Below are positions 7,428 to 47,465 of a stretch of DNA of 64,000 nucleotides, piece by piece. The notes below the pieces were generated by a model, which was not told where the DNA came from, did not search any database, and saw only the letters and a program-made list of their open reading frames with translations. Made by a program: the position numbers and the translations under genes. How positions within the stretch are numbered: the first letter of the stretch is position 1; every line of letters begins with the position of its first letter. The DNA comes from a virus: IMG/VR virus record IMGVR_UViG_3300035670_000014, positions 62,001-126,000 of that record, one strand, 5' to 3'.

Positions 7428-9860
7428 TTACCCATTGATAAATTTAATAACGCCGTTCTGTTTAAGTCTAAGAACTGCGGATCTTTCATCTACGCTGTAT
7501 TTAAAGTAGATAATAGACCCTACTTTAATCTTATCTTTATACTCCTCAACTGCATTTGGAAAGAGTGTTAGCTCAGCAACACCCGTCTTGTCCTCAACAG
7601 TGCAAGCATAAAGAGACTTGCCCTTCATCTTGCCTCTTTTTATCTGAATGTCCTCTATTCTGGTGATTACAACTAAACACCTACCAGACTGAGAGACCTG
7701 AGGTACGAGGTTATTAATGTAATCAAGTTCTATAGTAGGCGGTATTTTAATAAAGTCAATAGGGTGAGCTGAAATATATAAACCACAGTACTCACCTTCC
7801 CAGTCTACCATCTGCTTTGTGATTGATCTCTTTTCATAAACAGGAAGTTCAGGAAAAGAAGGCTCTTCTTTTGGCTTAGGAATTATAGGCTTCTTCGGCT
7901 TAGGCTCTGTATATATTTGCTTAGTACCATTCTCATCTATGACGGGAGTGGCAAGTCTGGTTATTACTTTAGTCTTGTAAAGATATTCCCAGTTAGCAAC
8001 TTCTATAGACCATTGCTCTAGTTCTTTATTCTTTAATTTTATATTAGCCTGATTCTCAAGATAAGAATCATACTGATTAAAGTAATCTAGAAGCAAAGGA
8101 AGTGAATCAACAAGGTCTTCTCTCTTGTGACCAAAAGCATCCAGTGCGCCTACTTTAGCAAGGATCGCCAAAGAGCCAGAGTTAACCTTTGATCTGTTGA
8201 TATTAGATAGCCAGTCCTTGAGAGTCTTAGCCTTGTGTACATTGCCGGCGATTAGATAGTTCGCCACAGATTTACCTATACCTTTTAGAATATCAATGCC
8301 AAATCTTATCTTGTTAGCTCCAACCTTGGCAAAGCCAATGTGAGGAGTAGTAACAGAAGGAGGAAGCATTTCTATTCCCATCGCTCTACACTCGTCTATA
8401 TAGGACTTAAGTTTATCTGGCTTATTAGACCTGAGACTCATAAGCTCAATCATAAACTCTACTGTAGAGTAAGCCTTTAGATAGGCGCAAGAGTAAGCTA
8501 TCAATGCATAAGCATAAGCATGTGGCTTGTTAAAGCCATAGCCTGAAAACTTATCAATGTATTCCCATACATAGCTTGCTTCACTCTCTGTAATCTTAGA
8601 GTTCTGAATGCAACCTTGAATAAACCTATCCTTCCACGACTGCATCTCTACTGGGTCCTTCTTACCCATTGCTCTTCTTACATTGTCAGAAGTCTCTTCA
8701 GAGAAGCCAGCAAGAACAGAAAGTGCAGCCATGCACTGTTCCTGGTAAACAAGAACACCGCCTGTCTCGGCTAGGACTGAATCAAGAAGTGGGTGAATCT
8801 TATTCTGAAGTAAGCCTGTTTTCTTGTACTCAATCCAGTCGTCAGTAAGACCATTGTCTTTAGGACCCGGTCTGATTAGTGCGCTAATAGCAGCTAAGTC
8901 TGCAACAGTAGTAGGCTGAACCTCGCTAATAACCTGGAATACATGGGACTCTTCCATCTGGAAAATGCCAGAAACAAATCCCTGGTTTATTAGCGTGAAA
9001 GCTTTAGGATCGTCAAGAGGAACCTCTTCCTGAATCCAGTCAACTGTTTTTCCGATTGCTGCTGTTGTATTCTTGAGTAGATCAAGGTTGTCAATAACAA
9101 GAATGTCAAACTTAATAAGGTTGCAATTCTTCTCAAGAGCGCCAGCTTCCCACTGAGATAAGTAGTACCAATTACCTTGATCATCTTTCTCTCCTTTAAC
9201 CTTACGTAAAGGGATATAGCTGTCCAAATAATCAGAGCCAATAATCACAGCAGAAGCATGCTGAGATTGATTCATAGGTTGCTTGTCCATTGTAGCAACA
9301 CATGAAAATACTTCTTTGTGCTGTTCTATAATCTCAGCGTAAACAGGATCATCCTTAAGGTCAATCCAGGTAGTTGCCTTACCACGATAGCTATCAGGCA
9401 GGCTGTCAGCCAAGGCGCGACCTTCTTCAAAAGTTCCACCTAGTGCTTTTGTAAAGTCAACTGTAGAACTCTTAACAGAATAAGGAGTATAAGTAGTAGG
9501 TCTAATAACACAAAGTTCACCATATTTATTCTGTAATTCTTTTATAATTACATCTTTCCCTGATGGAGAAAAGTCTGTATCTATATCTGGTCCTGCGCCA
9601 GTTACAGTAGAAGAACACCTCTTAGACTTGTCATAGTTATCACTATCAGAAAACAAGTAGAGCAATATGGAGTTACTTTTATTCTCAAGCTTCTTATTGA
9701 TATACTTCTTATCTATTACAATGCGAGTAAAGTCTTCATCGGTGATATACTTTAACTCGAATAGCAAATACCTGAAAGGTACATTCAATGTATACTTTAG
9801 ATAATCTAGCTTCTCATTAGCTTCCCTATTAACAATCTCTAGTTTAGTTTTTAAGTCCAA
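7428..9860 (-). CDS. dnaE: DNA polymerase III alpha subunit, C-terminal half (palm catalytic residues to OB domain)
   Basis: About 810 residues from a TTG at 9860, chosen because GGAGA lies 5 nt upstream; an ATG at 9950 would overlap the preceding gene by 107 nt and has no support. After a non-conserved 75-90 residue leader the protein enters the DnaE palm at PDIDTDFSPSGKD (two catalytic Asp), then KFDIL (third Asp), finger motifs such as FGYGFNKPHAYAYAL-like sequence near the middle, and an OB fold near the C-terminus. The PHP domain and PGRGS motif are encoded by a separate gene at 10241-11491. Together the halves make a full-length family C polymerase. Confidence 0.9.
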   Translation of the reverse strand: MDLKTKLEIVNREANEKLDYLKYTLNVPFRYLLFELKYITDEDFTRIVIDKKYINKKLENKSNSILLYLFSDSDNYDKSKRCSSTVTGAGPDIDTDFSPSGKDVIIKELQNKYGELCVIRPTTYTPYSVKSSTVDFTKALGGTFEEGRALADSLPDSYRGKATTWIDLKDDPVYAEIIEQHKEVFSCVATMDKQPMNQSQHASAVIIGSDYLDSYIPLRKVKGEKDDQGNWYYLSQWEAGALEKNCNLIKFDILVIDNLDLLKNTTAAIGKTVDWIQEEVPLDDPKAFTLINQGFVSGIFQMEESHVFQVISEVQPTTVADLAAISALIRPGPKDNGLTDDWIEYKKTGLLQNKIHPLLDSVLAETGGVLVYQEQCMAALSVLAGFSEETSDNVRRAMGKKDPVEMQSWKDRFIQGCIQNSKITESEASYVWEYIDKFSGYGFNKPHAYAYALIAYSCAYLKAYSTVEFMIELMSLRSNKPDKLKSYIDECRAMGIEMLPPSVTTPHIGFAKVGANKIRFGIDILKGIGKSVANYLIAGNVHKAKTLKDWLSNINRSKVNSGSLAILAKVGALDAFGHKREDLVDSLPLLLDYFNQYDSYLENQANIKLKNKELEQWSIEVANWEYLYKTKVITRLATPVIDENGTKQIYTEPKPKKPIIPKPKEEPSFPELPVYEKRSITKQMVDWEGEYCGLYISAHPIDFIKIPPTIELDYINNLVPQVSQSGRCLVVITRIEDIQIKRGKMKGKSLYACTVEDKTGVAELTLFPNAVEEYKDKIKVGSIIYFKYSVDERSAVLRLKQNGVIKFING

Positions 9861-10248
9861 AGTAATCTCCGTAATCAGGTAAAGTTTCAGACAAAGCACC
9901 AAGGGTAGCAAGAACAGAGAACTCAAAAGTGGTAATACCGAAAGGAACAAACTCTAAAAGTCTAATTGAGTTTAGAATGTCAAGTTTATCAAAGTTATTT
10001 ATAAGAACAGATCCATAACTTGTCCTGTCTGCATTAATCACTTTAGTTATTCCTCTTATTTCCCTTACGGCAAGTTCAACAAAAGGTCCCTGAAAAGTTG
10101 GTGGAGATATATATGTTCCATTGGTTAATCCGGCAATGGTTACTATATAGAAATATGCAAGATTGTGACTTCTTGAATACCATGTAGGAAAACAATAGAT
10201 TGAAGAATCATCAAAATCTAATTTAAAGTAAGATTTGTTTTCACTCAT
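9844..10248 (-). CDS. Small unknown protein inserted between the two polymerase halves
   Basis: 134 residues starting at ATG 10248, which overlaps the TGA of the polymerase N-half (ATGAGTGA). Its end overlaps the TTG start of the C-half by 17 nt. The sequence (SENKSYFKLDF, TWYSRSHNLAYFYIV) shows no homing-endonuclease or intein motif. Because it separates two parts of one enzyme it may be a structural bridge, an unrelated insertion or the remains of a mobile gene. Function unknown. Confidence 0.7.
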   Translation of the reverse strand: MSENKSYFKLDFDDSSIYCFPTWYSRSHNLAYFYIVTIAGLTNGTYISPPTFQGPFVELAVREIRGITKVINADRTSYGSVLINNFDKLDILNSIRLLEFVPFGITTFEFSVLATLGALSETLPDYGDYFGLKN

Positions 10249-11491
10249 CAAGCTCACCACAGAAGTCAAGAGAAACTTTAACTCTACCTGGGTTTAAGAA
10301 TCTTGAAAAGTAAAATCCATTAGCAATGGGGTCCATATGCTTACCAGTAAGACCCAAAGCCCAAGCAAGGAGAGAGCCACCAGATGAACCTCTACCTGGG
10401 CCAACTGGTATGTCGTTATCTTTAGCTATCTTAATATAGTCAGCAACCATTAAGAAGTAAGAGTTATAAGAGCTATCATCAATCAGATCAATCTCGAACT
10501 TTAGTTGCTTCTTATAAGCGGGAGGAATTGGATCAGTATCTGACAAGTTAAGCCTAGACCTGAGGCCTTCAAAGGCCAGTCTCTCAAGCTCATAGAAAGC
10601 TTCCTCGTTTGACATATGGTCAAACTTAATAGGCGGATTCTTAATAGATGAAAAGAAGTAAGAGCTATCTACCATGTCTGCAACATAGCCAGTATTGTGC
10701 ACTGCTTCCTCGGGTATGTTCCATTGCCTACATAACTCCAAAGCAAAGTCTGTATCATACAACCATGCATTGTAGTCTTGTATTGGATACTTAGAATCCA
10801 GATAAGACATGTGCCATCCAATGCACTGAACTAGACCTCTAAGTTTCCATTGATCTTGATCTGACTGGTGGGCGTCAGCAGTAAGAACCAAGGGAACATT
10901 ATGCTTCTTAGAAAGAGGAATAATAAGCTGATCATTAAATTGTTTCTGAAGGTCAACATTATTAACTTGAACTTCTGCAAAGAAGTTATCTCGGCCAACA
11001 ATATCTCTAATCTTCAAGAACCATTCTTCTGCGAGGTCTAACCTGTTAGCTTTAAAGAATGTTGCCATGTGGCTGGATAAGCAAGTAGAAGTAACTATAA
11101 GGCCATCACAATGCTTAGAGAAAGTCTCTATGTCAATACGAGGAAACCTGTGAAAGCCATCACTAAAGGCATAAGTATTAAGCTTAAGTAAGTTCTTATA
11201 GCCTGTCTCATTCTTTGCAAGGCAAAGAAAGTGTCCGTTATTACCCCAGTCCTCATGTGTCTTTTCAGTAGCAGGGCCAAAAGAAAGATAAGTTTCGTTG
11301 CCAATGATTGGCTTAACTCCAGCTTTCTGACAGCCTTTTGCGAATTCTAGAACACCTGATAAAGTACCATGGTCACTTAATGCACAAGCAGTCATGCCTC
11401 TAGACTTGACAACATCACCAATCTTATCCGCTCTCTGAATGCCGTCCTTTAGAGAATTACTCGAATGAACATGTAAATGTACAAATGGCAT
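10241..11491 (-). CDS. dnaE: DNA polymerase III alpha subunit, N-terminal half (PHP domain and start of palm)
   Basis: 416 residues. PHP motif HLHVHSS is at residues 5-11 and SDHGTLSG near 40. The N-terminal palm includes VGPGRGSSGGSLLAWALG and SRFLNPGRVKVSL, which in DnaE proteins immediately precedes the catalytic PDxDxDF. Here the frame ends nine residues later (DFCGELDE), and the catalytic motif reappears in the C-half gene. The two proteins therefore have to associate to form an active polymerase, or be joined in some other way. No intein signature is present at the break. Confidence 0.9.
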   Translation of the reverse strand: MPFVHLHVHSSNSLKDGIQRADKIGDVVKSRGMTACALSDHGTLSGVLEFAKGCQKAGVKPIIGNETYLSFGPATEKTHEDWGNNGHFLCLAKNETGYKNLLKLNTYAFSDGFHRFPRIDIETFSKHCDGLIVTSTCLSSHMATFFKANRLDLAEEWFLKIRDIVGRDNFFAEVQVNNVDLQKQFNDQLIIPLSKKHNVPLVLTADAHQSDQDQWKLRGLVQCIGWHMSYLDSKYPIQDYNAWLYDTDFALELCRQWNIPEEAVHNTGYVADMVDSSYFFSSIKNPPIKFDHMSNEEAFYELERLAFEGLRSRLNLSDTDPIPPAYKKQLKFEIDLIDDSSYNSYFLMVADYIKIAKDNDIPVGPGRGSSGGSLLAWALGLTGKHMDPIANGFYFSRFLNPGRVKVSLDFCGELDE

Positions 11492-41349: not shown

Positions 41350-42660
41350 TCAACTATAGTACTGACAGACTTGATTTATATTGATCGGCTCAGTTGGTTG
41401 ATTCGGAATCATAAGAACAGAACAGCTTTTTCGACTTGATGCAGCATAAGCACTAGAGTTTAGATACAAATATGGCAAGTCATAGCGTGGATCTCTAAAG
41501 CCAAACTTGACGCCCATAGATCTGCAGTCATTAAATCGAGTAATAATGTCAAATCTCAAAGGCTGCCAGTAAATAATTGGACTAGGATCCATATCTTTAA
41601 TTAGAGTACTTGTATTTCTTGACTCAGTATTGTAAGATCGCGCATAAGTAGGGTTATTAAACCAATCTACAGCAGTAATCCACTCATTACATTGTGCAAT
41701 TGTATTGCTAGTTGACTCTTGAGTTTCTGCTTTGTATGCAAAACTAAGGTCTAAAGAAGCAAACATTTTATTAGAGTGAGATCTTTTAGCTAGACGAAAA
41801 GAAAAATCTTCAAACGAAAACTCAGAAAGAATAGACTGGTTAATTATCTCAATCTGATCGCTAAAGTTAGGATCCTCAATAACAGAATATAAAGCAGAGG
41901 TAAAATCTTGAGGAACAAGACCCTGAAATAAATATTTTGAAGAACTGTGAAGGATGCCTTCTTCTGGAAGAATACTAAGCAGATCAGAGAACTTCCGATT
42001 AGTCTTCATGTGCTCGAAAACTAAAATCTTCTTAACATAATTAAGAACATTGAAGAATAAGTATCTATAGTTATCGTGGCTTTTTCGTGAAGATGACTTT
42101 AGTATAGGATTAACACAAGCCTTAACAAAATCCATAGATAGATCTAGGCAATTTTGAGTAAGCAAAGGGAAGTCACCCATTGCATAACCCTTGTTAAAGC
42201 CTCCAAAGAAGTAATCTATACCGATTAGACCTTTATATCGCCTGTTCCAGCGTGACCAGTTAGAGTCAATAATCTCAGGATAGTGTTTTCTGAATAAAGT
42301 ATAAATTTCAGTACCTGAAAAATAATCAAAGTTATAAGAAGGAATACCAGAGCTACCAAGAATACCAGAGTAAGAAATCAAGTCATTAACATGATTCGTA
42401 TAGTCAGCCATAATAGGCCGCTCTGGCTCCCTTTCTCTAAACCTCAGGTCCATACCATTGGTGTACAAATGGAAAGTGGTACTCCAGGGATTATAAAGAA
42501 TCGTGCCTGGAATATCAGAGTAAACCTCTAAAGCTTGAATAGATTCCTTATTAAGATCATATAGCTTTACAATCTTATAATTATCAGATTCAAAATTTGA
42601 ATGCACTCCAGAGGTTAAGTTAAATGTTTTTTTATTTTTCTTTGTAGATATATATGGCAT
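41350..42660 (-). CDS. Hypothetical protein of the Ser/Asn/Tyr-rich class
   Basis: 436 residues, no enzyme motif. It contains NFDYFSGTEI, similar to KFDYFTGTEL in the extension of the M28-like protein, so the two may share a small domain. Starts after an ACTTTTACTTAAA gap from speD. Confidence 0.75.
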   Translation of the reverse strand: MPYISTKKNKKTFNLTSGVHSNFESDNYKIVKLYDLNKESIQALEVYSDIPGTILYNPWSTTFHLYTNGMDLRFREREPERPIMADYTNHVNDLISYSGILGSSGIPSYNFDYFSGTEIYTLFRKHYPEIIDSNWSRWNRRYKGLIGIDYFFGGFNKGYAMGDFPLLTQNCLDLSMDFVKACVNPILKSSSRKSHDNYRYLFFNVLNYVKKILVFEHMKTNRKFSDLLSILPEEGILHSSSKYLFQGLVPQDFTSALYSVIEDPNFSDQIEIINQSILSEFSFEDFSFRLAKRSHSNKMFASLDLSFAYKAETQESTSNTIAQCNEWITAVDWFNNPTYARSYNTESRNTSTLIKDMDPSPIIYWQPLRFDIITRFNDCRSMGVKFGFRDPRYDLPYLYLNSSAYAASSRKSCSVLMIPNQPTEPININQVCQYYS

Positions 42661-42670
42661 TTACTTTTAC

Positions 42671-43168
42671 TTAAAGTACAGTTAAGGATGATGTGTTTTT
42701 CATATTCTCAAGTTCATATAAGTCTCTGTTAATTACATACTCTCTCCTGGTGGTCAGACTATATGTCTCAACTAGAAGATCAGAGACAAAATTCCAGGGA
42801 AAAGATTTACAGGAACTAATATCGACCTGAATAAGACCAGATTCAGGAAATGTATGAATAGCAATATGGCTTTCAGCTATAACTGCAATAGCAGTGTGTC
42901 CATATACACCTTCAGATCTATAAGACAAAGACTTTCTAAGTAAGTCGGCCGTCTTAGAGTTACCCAATCCTTCTTCTTCAAGAGACTGAAGACTTCTATG
43001 CATCTCTGAAGTAGCCATTGGAAATGCTACGCAATAAGGAGCAACTATCAAAGTCATATCAAGTAATTCTACTGCTTTATTGATAAAAGCCAGAGTTACA
43101 TTGGTATCATTAAGTAGTTCAGGGGAGCCTATTGCGTCAAGTATATAGTGGAGACCATTGTATTGCAT
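42671..43168 (-). CDS. speD: S-adenosylmethionine decarboxylase proenzyme (SpeD family)
   Basis: 165 residues. The self-cleavage site is VIAESHIAIHTFPE, with Ser100 as the residue that would become the pyruvoyl group, followed by VDISSCKSF. The size matches bacterial class 1b SpeD, although the C-terminus is longer and unusual. It would supply aminopropyl groups for spermidine, which condenses DNA, or, as in some phage and bacterial homologues, have shifted to arginine or ornithine decarboxylation. No spermidine synthase gene is nearby. Confidence 0.9.
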   Translation of the reverse strand: MQYNGLHYILDAIGSPELLNDTNVTLAFINKAVELLDMTLIVAPYCVAFPMATSEMHRSLQSLEEEGLGNSKTADLLRKSLSYRSEGVYGHTAIAVIAESHIAIHTFPESGLIQVDISSCKSFPWNFVSDLLVETYSLTTRREYVINRDLYELENMKNTSSLTVL

Positions 43169-43209
43169 TTAATTACCAGTTACAGGGCTGAATTGCCTAA
43201 TAGATTCTA

Positions 43210-43713
43210 TCACTTACTAAGTAAACTAGCAGATTCTATAAGCAAAGGGTATGGATTTATATTGCTTTGGACTTTATATTCTTTGGATAGAGACTTCCAA
43301 AGGTGAATAGCAGACTCAGATGTACTGCCTGTGTCACTGTATAAAGCAGGAACAAACATAAACTTGGAATCAGGCCACATAGTAGAGGCAAACTGTATAG
43401 CAAACTTATAAATAAGTTTACCTACACCTTTATTCTTATGGGATTCATACTGAATGATTGCAAGATCAACCATTAGGCAGTTAAAATCCTTTATATAAGG
43501 ATGAGGAAAAGATTTAGCTTCATAAAGATGAAAGATAAAATGAAAAACATCTATCTCAAAGCCTGGAACAACATAATATGCTGTTATGTCCAGTATGGAT
43601 GGTTTATTAGCTAATCCTTTGTCAAAATTGACAGATATAGAAATATTAAGGCCTAATATAGAAGAGACTGTGTCTTGCAGTTGACGAGCAAGATTTTGGA
43701 TGCTATTAGTCAT
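43210..43713 (-). CDS. Putative GNAT-family acetyltransferase
   Basis: 167 residues. LAIIQYESHKNKGVGKLIY resembles the acetyl-CoA pyrophosphate loop (Q/R-x-x-G-x-G) of GNAT enzymes and is followed by a helix and a beta strand (KFMFVPALYSDTGS). It lies directly upstream of speD in the transcript, so a polyamine or protein substrate is possible. The domain match is partial. Confidence 0.6.
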   Translation of the reverse strand: MTNSIQNLARQLQDTVSSILGLNISISVNFDKGLANKPSILDITAYYVVPGFEIDVFHFIFHLYEAKSFPHPYIKDFNCLMVDLAIIQYESHKNKGVGKLIYKFAIQFASTMWPDSKFMFVPALYSDTGSTSESAIHLWKSLSKEYKVQSNINPYPLLIESASLLSK

Positions 43714-43808
43714 AGAATAATTCCCAAAAATAAAATAGAGAAAATGGAAGCATTTTTTTTCTCAATTTTGAAACCTCCTATTAGGCCCCTTTTCTTTATA
43801 TGAGTAAA

Positions 43809-44402
43809 TTAAGGAAGGTTAGCGAAGTAATTAATTGCAGAATCTATAAGATCAGATGTAATACCGGTCTTATAGTTACTGTGTATTAATTGATTGCCAA
43901 ATACCAGACATTCGTCGTCATCGTCAATAACGATGTAGTTTCCAGTATAGTTGCAATAGCTAACCCAGTCCTTAATTTCTTCACTCCTGACAAAGAAACT
44001 ACCTTCGTTTCTTTGTTTGGTTCTAGAAATAATAGAACCAGTAAAACCTTGTAATTTAAGGTATTCTATAGTTCCGTAATAATTAGATCTCCATGTACTT
44101 GAGAGTACATATCTAATATCGGGATAAGTAGAATGAAGTCTATTTAGAATACTAACAAGATCAGGAAAAATACCAGGGTATTTGTCGTCTTGATTGGCGT
44201 TAAAACTACAGGTCCAATTGAGGGCATCTAGATTACTGCCCTCAAAGTTAAGGACACCATCTATGTCAAGAAAAACTAACCTGGTTATTTTAGCCAGGTT
44301 AGGTTTATTTAAGTAATCATCTGAATCATAGAAATTAAGTGGCATTTGAAAATGCCGACAATAATTTATCTCTGATAAATGACTAGAAGATGAATTAGTC
44401 AT
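43809..44402 (-). CDS. HAD-superfamily phosphatase of the HAD-SAK type
   Basis: 197 residues. Motif I LVFLDIDGVLNF near residue 45, motif II YVLSSTWRSNY near 99 and acidic motif IVIDDDDECL near 155. Phage proteins of this type are related to the phosphatase domains in nucleic-acid repair proteins. It might remove 3' phosphates or act on nucleotides. It overlaps the upstream small gene by 8 nt. Confidence 0.8.
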   Translation of the reverse strand: MTNSSSSHLSEINYCRHFQMPLNFYDSDDYLNKPNLAKITRLVFLDIDGVLNFEGSNLDALNWTCSFNANQDDKYPGIFPDLVSILNRLHSTYPDIRYVLSSTWRSNYYGTIEYLKLQGFTGSIISRTKQRNEGSFFVRSEEIKDWVSYCNYTGNYIVIDDDDECLVFGNQLIHSNYKTGITSDLIDSAINYFANLP

Positions 44403-44646
44403 TGTAAGGAAACAGATTCATGATTGTTTCTTCGCATTTTTCAGTGATCATAAGAGTAACCAAATCAATATCACTCTCACAGTAACCAAATTTCTTCATA
44501 AACTGAAGCAAAGGTTGATAAGATTTAAACATTACAGTTTCTGTAATGTCATCATAAGTTTCGTACTTAAAGCAATCGGAAAACTTTTTGCCATTTTGCT
44601 TCTCGATTAAATAAGTTTGATAATAGAATAAATCAGCTAATTCCAT
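44395..44646 (-). CDS. Small hypothetical protein
   Basis: 83 residues from ATG 44646 (MELADLFYYQTY); a TTG start at 44676 is an alternative. Acidic, Tyr/Phe-rich, helical. Overlaps the HAD gene by 8 nt. No family recognised. Confidence 0.62.
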   Translation of the reverse strand: MELADLFYYQTYLIEKQNGKKFSDCFKYETYDDITETVMFKSYQPLLQFMKKFGYCESDIDLVTLMITEKCEETIMNLFPYND

Positions 44647-44825
44647 AGTTGTAACCAATGATAAAGTCGCAAGCAAATGTTACTGGATATTGTTCTTTCT
44701 CAGTATTCATTGAATGACTTAAATAGGGGTAATGTCGTAATAAAGACACAAAACCCATGTTGAGTTTCGTTTATAATTTACTTGTATCGGATATAAAAGG
44801 CAAGTAAAGATAAACCAAAAGAAAG

Positions 44826-44852
44826 AAGGTGAAACCTTCTAGGTTTCACCTT
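44826..44852 (-). terminator. Intrinsic terminator after the radical SAM C-half gene
   Basis: AAGGTGAAACC TTCTA GGTTTCACCTT, an 11-bp perfect stem. On the minus strand it is followed by CTTTCTTTTGG. It starts immediately after the stop at 44853. Confidence 0.88.
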
Positions 44853-45743
44853 TTAGAAAGCATACCTTATCCTGCAATAGGGGATGTACTCTTGTATTAC
44901 AGATTTAAAATTAGAAACACTTTTAGCCTTTAAATCGTATTTATAGCAAATAACATCAGGCTTGTTGTATTTAGTTTGTTGACTCTTAGGATTCCAAAGG
45001 AATGATTCTCCCTTTGGGTTCCATACTTCGTTGATCTTATGAAGCTGCTCACTATGGGTGAGCATTATGACTTCACAAGCAAGTTGATCTTTGGCCTTCT
45101 GAGATAAAGTTGAATCAATAAGCTGGAAAAGCTTAATCCAGTCCTGCCTGGCACCAGGATAAAGAATCACCGGACTAAAGTTCAAGTGAACTTCATAGCC
45201 GGCATCAACAAGTTGATTGATTGCATTTATTCTTGCTGATATTTGACTAGTCCTGATGTCAACATATTGGGATATAGATTGAGGCATAAGGCTATACCTT
45301 ATCCTTACCCTATCCCCAGGATCAAAAGCCAGTAGAGGGGCAATATTGACCGTTTTAGTAGCAAAGCTAACCTTAGCATTCTCGCTGTGCTTAACAGCTT
45401 CCATTATTTCCAGTGGAATGTTGGAAATCATAAGGTCAAGGCTTACATCATTGTTATTACCAATGTCATAAGTCCAATACTTGGAATCACACTGATTAGG
45501 TTCAAGCTTAGGACCCAAAGAGTTAGAATGAGAAATTATAGAATCTATAACATCATCTGTATTAACAAATATAGTAACAGGATTAGAACCACCCTTTCTA
45601 CGAGCCGTATAACAGTTGTGAGTTAGAATATTTTCAGCAAAATAATTTTCATAAACAGGAACATGGAAATTATAAACAGTCGTATTTTTTTCAATTTTCT
45701 TTATACTTTGAATTTTAGAAAACTTAGGAGTTTTAAGTTGCAT
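44853..45743 (-). CDS. Split-intein C-part fused to C-extein of a spore-photoproduct-lyase-like radical SAM enzyme
   Basis: 296 residues. Residues 1-43 form a C-intein: VYNFHVPVYENYFAENI is block F and ILTHN is block G with the terminal Asn. The extein starts at Cys44 (CYTARRKGG), which is both the +1 nucleophile and the last cysteine of the CX3CX2C cluster motif. The rest carries SPL-like blocks (RIRYSLMPQSI, YEVHLNFSPVILYPGARQDW). It must be joined to the N-part at 46276-46902 to give a complete enzyme. Its 5' end overlaps the divergent HNH frame. Confidence 0.92.
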   Translation of the reverse strand: MQLKTPKFSKIQSIKKIEKNTTVYNFHVPVYENYFAENILTHNCYTARRKGGSNPVTIFVNTDDVIDSIISHSNSLGPKLEPNQCDSKYWTYDIGNNNDVSLDLMISNIPLEIMEAVKHSENAKVSFATKTVNIAPLLAFDPGDRVRIRYSLMPQSISQYVDIRTSQISARINAINQLVDAGYEVHLNFSPVILYPGARQDWIKLFQLIDSTLSQKAKDQLACEVIMLTHSEQLHKINEVWNPKGESFLWNPKSQQTKYNKPDVICYKYDLKAKSVSNFKSVIQEYIPYCRIRYAF

Positions 45744-46574
45744 AACTGTTCTGTTTGTGGAAAGTTTACTAATAAAAAATGCTGTGAAGAAAAAGTATTC
45801 CTAGAGAAAGGTTTAGTATTTAACTATCACAGTGAAGCTGCAAGATATTTTAATGTAGATTCAAGATATGCAAAAAGAAAACTCTATAATGTAAACTATA
45901 CTTTAAGTGAAATAAAAATAACAAAAAACAGCAAACTAGTTAATTGTAAAATTTGCAATCAATCATCAATAACTTCAAAATGTAGAGCTGGATATTGTAA
46001 AAATTGCTCTCGTAAAGGATTAGGTAAGAAAACTAGAGGAATAGAATTAAGAAATAAATACCTTGGAGAGAAAAATCCAAACTTTAAAGATGGTAAAGCA
46101 AGGCAGTCGATAAGAAACAGACATGAATGGAAAGAAATAAGAAAAGAAATTCTTTCAGAAAGACAATGCTGTGAAGTAAGTGGACATAGTAAATACTTAC
46201 ATCTTCATCATATATTGCCAGTTTGCTTATTTCCACAATATTCATTAGAAAAATGGAACATTATTGTTCTTCAGGCTAATCTACACATAGAAGTTCATCG
46301 TCAAGATTTAGATATTGTGCTTCTACCCAACCTCTGTTCTTTGTATAAAGAGGATGTTCACCTGATACGCGAAGAGTTCGTCCGTCAACTGAAATTTCAT
46401 AAATTTCACTTACTTGACGAGATGCCAAATGAAAAGCTTGAGCTACTAAAGGAGAACCAGAATTGGTATCGTAAGAAATTACATCTGATCCCGATAGAAT
46501 TTGTTCTACAGGAATTTGGCCACTTGGAGTGGATATCAAAGTTCCTTCTTCCACGCAGTAGAGGCAAGAACTAA
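45663..46574 (+). CDS. HNH homing endonuclease between the split-intein halves, opposite strand
   Basis: Open frame of 303 residues; a TTG start at 45738 would reduce overlap with the C-intein. It has cysteine pairs (CSVCGKFTNKKCC, CKICNQ..CRAGYCKNC) like zinc ribbons, an HTH-like stretch (SEAARYFNVDSRYAKRKL), a GEKNPNFKDGKAR segment and the nuclease core LHLHHILPVCLFPQ..N..LHIEVH. The core ends near 46300. The following 90 codons are antisense to the N-intein and may not be functional. It would be the homing partner that spreads the split intein. Confidence 0.88.
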   Translation: MEIINSRIFFNFLYTLNFRKLRSFKLHNCSVCGKFTNKKCCEEKVFLEKGLVFNYHSEAARYFNVDSRYAKRKLYNVNYTLSEIKITKNSKLVNCKICNQSSITSKCRAGYCKNCSRKGLGKKTRGIELRNKYLGEKNPNFKDGKARQSIRNRHEWKEIRKEILSERQCCEVSGHSKYLHLHHILPVCLFPQYSLEKWNIIVLQANLHIEVHRQDLDIVLLPNLCSLYKEDVHLIREEFVRQLKFHKFHLLDEMPNEKLELLKENQNWYRKKLHLIPIEFVLQEFGHLEWISKFLLPRSRGKN

Positions 46575-46902
46575 AACAGCCGTTTGCATGAGACGGCGGA
46601 ATAAAATCAGTTGACCTTCCAGAATCAGTCATTGCCATATTAGACATACGACCAATAACAAGAACATGTCTTTTATTTGCTATCCAATCTACAGGATCGG
46701 CCTTAGCTAAATCTGGAATAAGCCAGTGATTCTTAACATATTTAACTTCATAGTTAGAGCCAGAATCTGCAAGCTTTTGACAGATTGATGTGATTCTAGA
46801 TATTTCCTTTTCACTATAATTACAATTCTGTATATAAAGAGTATTTATATCACTCAGTTTAATCACTAGGTCCCCTTGGTTGGTATTAAGAAAAGGCCCC
46901 AA
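46276..46902 (-). CDS. N-extein of a spore-photoproduct-lyase-like enzyme with split-intein N-part
   Basis: 208 residues. Residues 1-115 are extein ending NGCFSSCLY, the first two cysteines of a radical SAM CX3CX2C motif. Cys116 starts the intein: CVEEGTLISTPSGQIPVEQI is block A and TLRVSGEHPLYTK is block B. The frame stops 93 residues into the intein (DDELLCVD). Splicing would give ...CFSSCLY joined to CYTARRKGG, about 368 residues in total. The predicted activity is radical SAM repair of DNA, by family; the substrate is uncertain. Confidence 0.92.
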   Translation of the reverse strand: MGPFLNTNQGDLVIKLSDINTLYIQNCNYSEKEISRITSICQKLADSGSNYEVKYVKNHWLIPDLAKADPVDWIANKRHVLVIGRMSNMAMTDSGRSTDFIPPSHANGCFSSCLYCVEEGTLISTPSGQIPVEQILSGSDVISYDTNSGSPLVAQAFHLASRQVSEIYEISVDGRTLRVSGEHPLYTKNRGWVEAQYLNLDDELLCVD

Positions 46903-46908
46903 GGGGCC
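46891..46908 (-). terminator. Intrinsic terminator between the DUF262 gene and the radical SAM N-half
   Basis: GGCCCC AA GGGGCC; on the minus strand followed by TTTTCTTAATACC. It lies just after the stop at 46917 and overlaps the first codons of the frame at 46902, so the actual start of the next gene may be the internal GTG/ATT region or transcription may read through. Confidence 0.75.
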
Positions 46909-46916
46909 AGATAGAG

Positions 46917-47465
46917 TTAAGACTGATACTCAGCAAGTAAATTCCTTACACGCTGAATTTCTTCTAGTGTATGAGGAGTACCTGTAGCGTTGATTCGTAG
47001 GTATAACATTAGCCGATCTGCAGGACTTAGGTCAACATACATAATCTTAACTTCCGTCTTGCGATATAGCTGTCGAATGTCCTTATCATCAAACTCATGT
47101 ACATAAATGTTCTCGCCGGTAGTCGGTTCGATTGCCGGGATGTTACCAAGCATCCAATGGTACAGCGAAAAGAGCCGATGTTGCCCATCAATGATCTCCA
47201 TATGATCATCGTAGATGTTTCGATTGATCCAGCATGGAGGACAGAATCCTCCAGTAATCATACTTCCGACAAAAGCACTAGCTTGATATACAGTCCAAGT
47301 ATGATTTCGTTGATAGTCAGGGACTACCCACTTTCGATTAGGATCATCTGGACTACCTGCAAATCCCTTTTGTATCTCAAACAAGTTAGCATGCGACTCA
47401 ACAACAAAAGGCAATGGTTTAAAGATAGAATCAAATGATCTTTTGATTAGAGTTGAAGCTGTCAT
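46917..47465 (-). CDS. DUF262/ParB-like domain protein
   Basis: 182 residues. VVPDYQRNHTWTVYQASAF, MEIIDGQHRLFSLYHWM and RLMLYLRINATGTPHT are the DUF262 signatures (DGQQR and the R-x-N-x-G-T end). DUF262 is the N-terminal domain of GmrSD-type restriction proteins and of other nucleotide-dependent DNA-targeting factors. Here it is alone, without the DUF1524 HNH domain. Its codon use is less AT-rich than neighbours. It could be an antagonist of host GmrSD or an independent regulator. Confidence 0.85.
   Translation of the reverse strand: MTASTLIKRSFDSIFKPLPFVVESHANLFEIQKGFAGSPDDPNRKWVVPDYQRNHTWTVYQASAFVGSMITGGFCPPCWINRNIYDDHMEIIDGQHRLFSLYHWMLGNIPAIEPTTGENIYVHEFDDKDIRQLYRKTEVKIMYVDLSPADRLMLYLRINATGTPHTLEEIQRVRNLLAEYQS

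Follow-up and report, generated by a model that had tools for sequence, protein, structure and literature searches.

Genes broken by split inteins, with an endonuclease gene lying between the two halves, were reportedly described by Dassa et al. in 2009, mainly from phage metagenomes; these fractured genes are said to fall into eight types of enzyme for DNA synthesis and repair, with Vsr-like endonucleases in about half of the loci. Among RNA elements, group I introns can carry homing endonuclease genes in antisense orientation (PMC9548176), and for inteins both the loss of the endonuclease in the homing cycle and mutualism with the Hint domain as an escape from that loss have been discussed (PMC8966425). 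Here we describe a locus in a 64-kb window (the whole stretch of DNA analysed) of a 170,948-bp IMG/VR virus record, IMGVR_UViG_3300035670_000014, which very probably holds, judging from its sequence and that of its relatives, a mobile naturally split intein with an antisense homing endonuclease in a phage radical S-adenosylmethionine (SAM) gene of the spore photoproduct lyase (SPL) family. Its most unusual part, absent from a first-pass annotation of the same DNA, is that the antisense endonuclease gene shares DNA with the N-terminal intein fragment (N-intein). The open reading frames (ORFs), coordinates and sequences given in that annotation were all confirmed, and the principal features are as follows (all coordinates are window-based).

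46276-46902, minus strand: N-part ORF, N-extein and N-intein fused, with GTG 46866 as the likelier start
46558-46866, minus strand: N-extein, SPL-family radical SAM, with cluster cysteines 1 and 2 (CX3C), ending in GCFSSCLY (TIGR03886 model positions 26-94; intein-free homologues)
46279-46557, minus strand: N-intein, 93 amino acids, with Cys1, block A CVEEGTLIST and block B SGEH (TIGR01445, PF14890, NrdJ-1 profile match, alignment A1)
45738-46574, plus strand: HNH homing-endonuclease-like gene (HEN), 278 amino acids (PHROG matches, invariant residues, AlphaFold (AF2) core)
46276-46574, both strands: dual-coding stretch, the N-part ORF on the minus strand and the C-terminal ~97 amino acids of HEN on the plus strand (frame, shuffle and diversity tests)
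44853-45743, minus strand: C-part ORF, C-intein and C-extein fused (TIGR03886, intein profiles)
45615-45743, minus strand: C-intein, 43 amino acids, ending in ILTHN (PF14890, sub-threshold TIGR01443, alignment A2)
44853-45614, minus strand: C-extein, opening with Cys+1 (CYTARRKGG...) (TIGR03886, PDB 4fhg)

The N-part and C-part ORFs, separated by 532 nt, are covered consecutively by the profile TIGR03886 (N-part residues 51-117 aligning with model positions 26-94, E = 1.2e-16; C-part residues 41-296 with model positions 90-346, E = 8.6e-95) and are therefore successive pieces of one protein; the C-extein also matched the spore photoproduct lyase structure 4fhg in a PDB profile comparison (2e-9). 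The curated cut-off of 437.55 bits was not reached by the 60.9 + 317.8 bits from the two pieces, a shortfall due in part to the split, and we file the host protein as a divergent TIGR03886 relative that is SPL-like only. The first-pass annotation had described a radical SAM repair-type gene split at its CX3CX2C motif: the split, and the membership of both halves in one SPL-family radical SAM protein, were borne out by the profile matches and by homologues with empty sites, but a role in repair is not established, because the H-atom-donor cysteine of true spore photoproduct lyase (C140/C141) has no conserved counterpart in these phage proteins, most of which have W, I or V before T-Y-D-I.

At the break, the extein end GCFSSCLY is followed directly by the N-intein residues CVEEGTLIST...VSGEHPLYT, and the N-part runs on for 93 intein residues to its stop codon (46276-46278), as first described; the C-part opens, also as described, with a 43-residue C-intein ending in ILTHN and then Cys-Tyr-Thr. 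Profile searches of both fragments against intein and SPL families, suggested in the first-pass annotation, returned intein matches beside TIGR03886: TIGR01445 (1.4e-4) and PF14890 to the N-intein, and PF14890 (3.5e-5), with TIGR01443 below threshold, to the C-intein. In profile comparisons the N-intein matched the NrdJ-1 intein structure (8ubs, 2.2e-11) and, more weakly, gp41-1 (6qaz, 0.0075). The residues expected of a naturally split Hint domain (Cys1, VSGEH and ILTHN followed by Cys) are all present in the window, and Cys1, the block B His (in S/TxxH), HN and Cys+1 are invariant across the aligned relatives (alignments A1 and A2). The interpretation as a naturally split intein thus found agreement among profiles, empty sites and conserved relatives; no further intein was detected in the 171-kb record with the N-intein profile A1.

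The intein is inserted right before the third cysteine of CX3CX2C, so that Cys+1 of the splicing reaction is also the third cluster ligand. That the insertion lies exactly within the Fe-S motif, as had been proposed, is shown by the empty sites of homologues: intein-free relatives in other viral contigs, for which a search had likewise been suggested, are uninterrupted at the junction (for example, GCAMACTY/CYVARRKG in L002 and GCALSCAY/CYVGRRKG in L003, with the slash marking the site), and empty alleles at the identical position occur in L002-L004, L076 and others. Nearly all of the listed intein-free homologues have the contiguous CX3CX2C, as does the predicted product of ligation. The exteins of the window are most similar to those of intein-free L002 (51%) and L003 (46%); the intein-bearing group-B exteins (defined below) are 35-40% identical. 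In the closest full/empty pair, L028 and L076, whose C-exteins are 89.6% identical in amino acids, the insertion falls precisely between TAC and TGT. In this pair, ~110 nt just downstream of the insertion are nearly identical and the DNA just upstream is 74% identical, an asymmetry such as would be expected from one-sided co-conversion or site recombination. One intein-free homologue, L041, reads GCLYNYTY/CY in the codons before position 657, with the second cluster Cys replaced by Tyr; its protein may be inactive, or the sequence may contain an error.

Scanning with either intein fragment or with the HNH protein brought up 41 further IMG/VR viral contigs in which this split intein occupies the identical position; contig ends truncate some of them. 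Together with the window they yielded 31 distinct complete copies in three lineages: the window, 29 copies that we call group B, and L184. Every complete copy (31/31) has the fractured-gene layout: a split intein interrupts the conserved enzyme, and the region separating the two parts is occupied by the endonuclease ORF, here an HNH gene on the opposite strand; no endonuclease-less copy of the element was found. All but one of the 29 group-B elements are 965 bp long. In the pair L099/L014, the intein-locus DNA is 99.0% identical and the exteins only 74.1%, which is likely to reflect a recent transfer, and several other pairs have intein-locus DNA 94-98% identical versus 68-81% for the exteins. 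Because the intein locus is more similar than the exteins and its distribution is patchy, horizontal movement is indicated, and from these comparisons the element appears as a conserved, patchily distributed mobile element and not an isolated case. Beyond the viral contigs, annotated phages contained no C-part relative and no split SPL gene (the matches were unrelated inteins and short HNH hits), and among cellular genomes one Diapherotrites metagenome-assembled genome gave a match to the C-intein only. Two contigs have a second N-extein-like fragment upstream of the fractured gene (L012:2658-2741 and L109:241-306), perhaps a partial duplication or the remnant of an earlier copy.

An intervening endonuclease, of the kind that the first-pass annotation mentioned for known fractured genes, is present here as an HNH-type gene on the opposite strand that has DNA in common with the N-intein. 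Its start in the window is TTG 45738, with AGGAG seven bases upstream (45726-45730), in a frame open from ATG 45663. The product is HNH homing-endonuclease-like: it matched PHROG HNH and homing endonuclease families (1.5e-8 to 1.3e-6), and 12 Cys/His/Asn positions, the HNH catalytic residues among them, are invariant in 31 homologues (including H157/H158, N174, H183, H187 and the checked Cys positions). Both His183 (46284-46286) and His187 (46296-46298) are encoded in DNA antisense to the N-intein, and AF2 models place an HNH-like core, at moderate confidence, before helices whose codons lie inside the N-intein. No free-standing HNH relative with the same tail was found, all 39 matches of the HNH scan lying in contigs that bear the element (one of which was the new lineage L184). 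An origin of HEN as a duplicate of the N-intein was ruled out by a profile comparison of the two, which showed no relation.

In the window the HEN frame overlaps the whole N-intein and stops just within the N-extein, whereas the group-B stop falls near N-intein codon 9; in all 31 loci the frame is open across almost the entire N-intein, as far as the HEN stop. Within the overlap, the second positions of HEN codons lie opposite the third positions of N-intein codons. The antisense HEN frame was free of stops in 30 of 30 copies, when synonymous codon shuffles of the N-intein predicted 1.6-4.5 stops per copy (zero-stop probability 0.0005-0.12 each) and the same frame in 15 unrelated N-inteins contained 1-9. 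The HEN tails of the window and group B were also more alike than their N-inteins require, with 34/90 identical residues in the best pair versus 19.1±3.3 from synonymous redraws, and with identities above that expectation in 9 of 9 window/group-B pairs. Diversity within group B points the same way: third-position differences were 0.118 in the N-intein overlap, 0.32 in the HEN body (where codon-position bias is normal) and 0.471 in the C-extein, and the overlap differed at codon positions 1, 2 and 3 by 0.094, 0.074 and 0.132, the periodicity of the HEN frame. N-intein codons 1-9, past the HEN stop, vary normally (0.092, 0.045 and 0.457 at positions 1, 2 and 3), whereas third-position diversity in codons 10-91 is 0.02-0.16 (mean 0.081 versus 0.457; Mann-Whitney P = 7e-7). 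With a frame open beyond expectation and synonymous sites frozen only in the overlap, both hallmarks of dual coding were found, and both strands are therefore under protein-coding selection. We consider it reasonably probable that the N-intein and the C-terminal third of HEN, last catalytic His included, occupy the two strands of the same ~0.3 kb and that two selfish functions are thereby locked together. If so, most mutations that kill this part of HEN would also hit the splicing domain, and the lock would explain why endonuclease-less copies were not found, even though inteins usually lose their endonuclease in the homing cycle.

Several observations weigh against our overall interpretation of the locus. 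AF2 confidence is low for the final ~30-50 HEN residues, and Foldseek searches with the HEN model gave weak matches only, led by HNH-nuclease entries. Because the group-B sequences are related, the per-sequence probabilities above cannot be treated as independent; the comparison within the element and the sharp limit at the HEN stop do not rely on such independence to the same degree. Neither the C-part nor the group-B HNH genes have a clear Shine-Dalgarno sequence, and no promoter stands out at the locus. The poorly modelled tail, together with the different position of the HEN stop in the window (46574) and in group B, would suit a passive overlap, in which the functional part of HEN would end close to the last catalytic His, with run-on translation through the N-intein beyond it. 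Such run-on would not freeze synonymous sites of the N-intein, however, and these are frozen in codons 10-91 and free in codons 1-9; in codons 24-37 the third position (0.024) even falls below the first and second (0.19/0.17), the HEN second position being kept, and the frame is open in all copies against the expectation from shuffling. We therefore regard a passive overlap as improbable.

If the split intein is functional, as we infer from its conserved splicing residues, the N-part and C-part would be translated separately, and their Hint fragments would associate and trans-splice to yield CFSSCLYCYTARRKGG, a ligated protein of ~355 residues that would regain CFSSCLYC and could bind the cluster. 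In mixed infections the HNH enzyme would cut intein-free alleles near the motif codons, and repair would copy the entire ~0.95-kb element; this cleavage of the intein-free allele, and homing with it, is suggested by the contrast in divergence between intein and exteins. Selection for splicing would meanwhile restrain decay of the overlapped part of the HEN frame, because much of HEN shares DNA with the N-intein. An alternative is that the halves assemble non-covalently and are never spliced, by analogy with the endonuclease-split NrdA of phage Aeh1, and two-polypeptide split phage enzymes are indeed known (PMC2988022). This seems very unlikely here: the residues needed for splicing are conserved (Cys1, S/TxxH, and HN followed by Cys), and the break inside the cluster motif leaves neither half with all three ligands. 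Neither half alone should thus be able to bind the [4Fe-4S] cluster, and splicing would be expected to restore enzyme activity.

Still less probable is a reading without a second protein frame, in which the synonymous sites of the N-intein are conserved for the sake of an RNA or DNA element, such as mRNA structure, a regulatory site or a binding site for HEN itself. Endonuclease genes may have operator-like sites close to their coding sequence, as for I-TevI (PMC2988022), but the constraint is ~246 nt long, has the periodicity of the HEN frame and ends at the HEN stop, and the frame has stayed free of stops in lineages that differ from each other in about half of the N-intein residues. Least credible of all is a contiguous intein or intein-free gene misread through assembly or sequencing error, or a decaying pseudogene, as a metagenomic viral record with halves in separate ORFs 532 nt apart might suggest; we reject it, since 30 other distinct sequences from many IMG/VR datasets have the same layout, intact frames and a mostly constant 965-bp element, and the DNA between the halves is itself coding, on the opposite strand, the HEN body having normal codon-position bias. 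A contiguous intein with an in-frame endonuclease was likewise rejected: HEN is read from the opposite strand, and the N-part ends at a stop codon of its own, just as the C-part begins at its own start codon.

Two hairpins that match the terminator consensus alone flank the fractured gene.

44826-44852, minus strand: intrinsic-terminator-like hairpin immediately 3' of the C-part
46895-46908, minus strand: terminator-like hairpin in the gap between the upstream gene and the N-part

The second bears on the limits of the N-part. The ORF 46276-46902 exists as first annotated, but its listed start, TTG 46902, falls within this hairpin, and for that reason GTG 46866, with AAGGGG upstream, is the likelier start. 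At the other end of the intervening DNA, the C-part (ATG at 45743) and HEN overlap head to head at their starts by 6 nt (45738-45743), an arrangement that could couple their expression; in many group-B copies the HEN and C-part starts share a CATG palindrome. Neighbouring genes on the minus strand (41350-47465) include those for S-adenosylmethionine decarboxylase (42671-43168), a HAD_SAK_2 protein (43809-44402) and a GmrSD_N/DUF262-like protein (46917-47465). Elsewhere in the window, DNA polymerase III alpha lies in two minus-strand ORFs (7428-11491), one with the PHP domain and the start of the NTPase domain (10241-11491) and one with the rest (7428-9950), with an unassigned stretch, a 141-amino-acid ORF, at the break (9844-10269); no intein signature was found at that break.

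Intein theory asks why homing endonucleases persist after an intein has become fixed, and functional mutualism is one answer (PMC8966425). In this element the link between HEN and the splicing domain lies in the DNA itself, as entangled reading frames, and 31 loci in three lineages make the idea testable. Through the insertion, the cluster site of a radical SAM enzyme would also come to require trans-splicing, and the splicing nucleophile Cys+1 would serve as a cluster ligand. Redox- or splicing-gated activation of a phage enzyme could be tested in this case, and protein engineering gains a new natural split intein family.

Searches of a literature library for inteins with spore photoproduct lyase returned no paper, those for split intein with radical SAM two unrelated reviews, and those for split intein with overlapping genes nothing relevant. 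Among described systems, spore photoproduct lyase (4fhg, PF20903) and TIGR03886 share family membership by sequence and, after ligation, CX3CX2C with the host protein, which differs in having no conserved H-donor Cys before the T-x-D-I segment. The profile NF038136, for the intein-containing Rv2578c-family radical SAM proteins, weakly matched N-part residues 108-193 (E = 0.0026, model positions 68-155) across GCxxxCxY/C, which suggests an intein at the equivalent Fe-S-motif position in that family; judged by its 574-residue model, however, that intein is a cis intein contained in one polypeptide, and the radical SAM family is a different one. NrdJ-1, gp41-1 and IMPDH-1 have Hint N- and C-fragments of similar size, but here the extein and insertion site are others and an antisense endonuclease is kept in every copy. 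Antisense endonucleases of group I introns (PMC9548176) are likewise housed within self-splicing elements and encoded on the strand complementary to the host gene, but those elements are RNA introns in rDNA, whereas here the element is a protein intein whose endonuclease shares coding DNA with the splicing protein. The logic of a split intein with an endonuclease is thus known; this locus departs from it in a new target, the insertion in the Fe-S motif and a dual-strand coding that we did not find described. The closest likeness remains the fractured genes of Dassa et al., in which a split intein reportedly divides a conserved enzyme gene and a free-standing endonuclease gene lies between the two parts; the target here is a radical SAM enzyme cut within its Fe-S motif, with Cys+1 as a cluster ligand, and the endonuclease is HNH-type, antisense to the host gene and encoded in part by the same DNA as the N-intein, where about half of the 2009 loci reportedly have Vsr-like enzymes.
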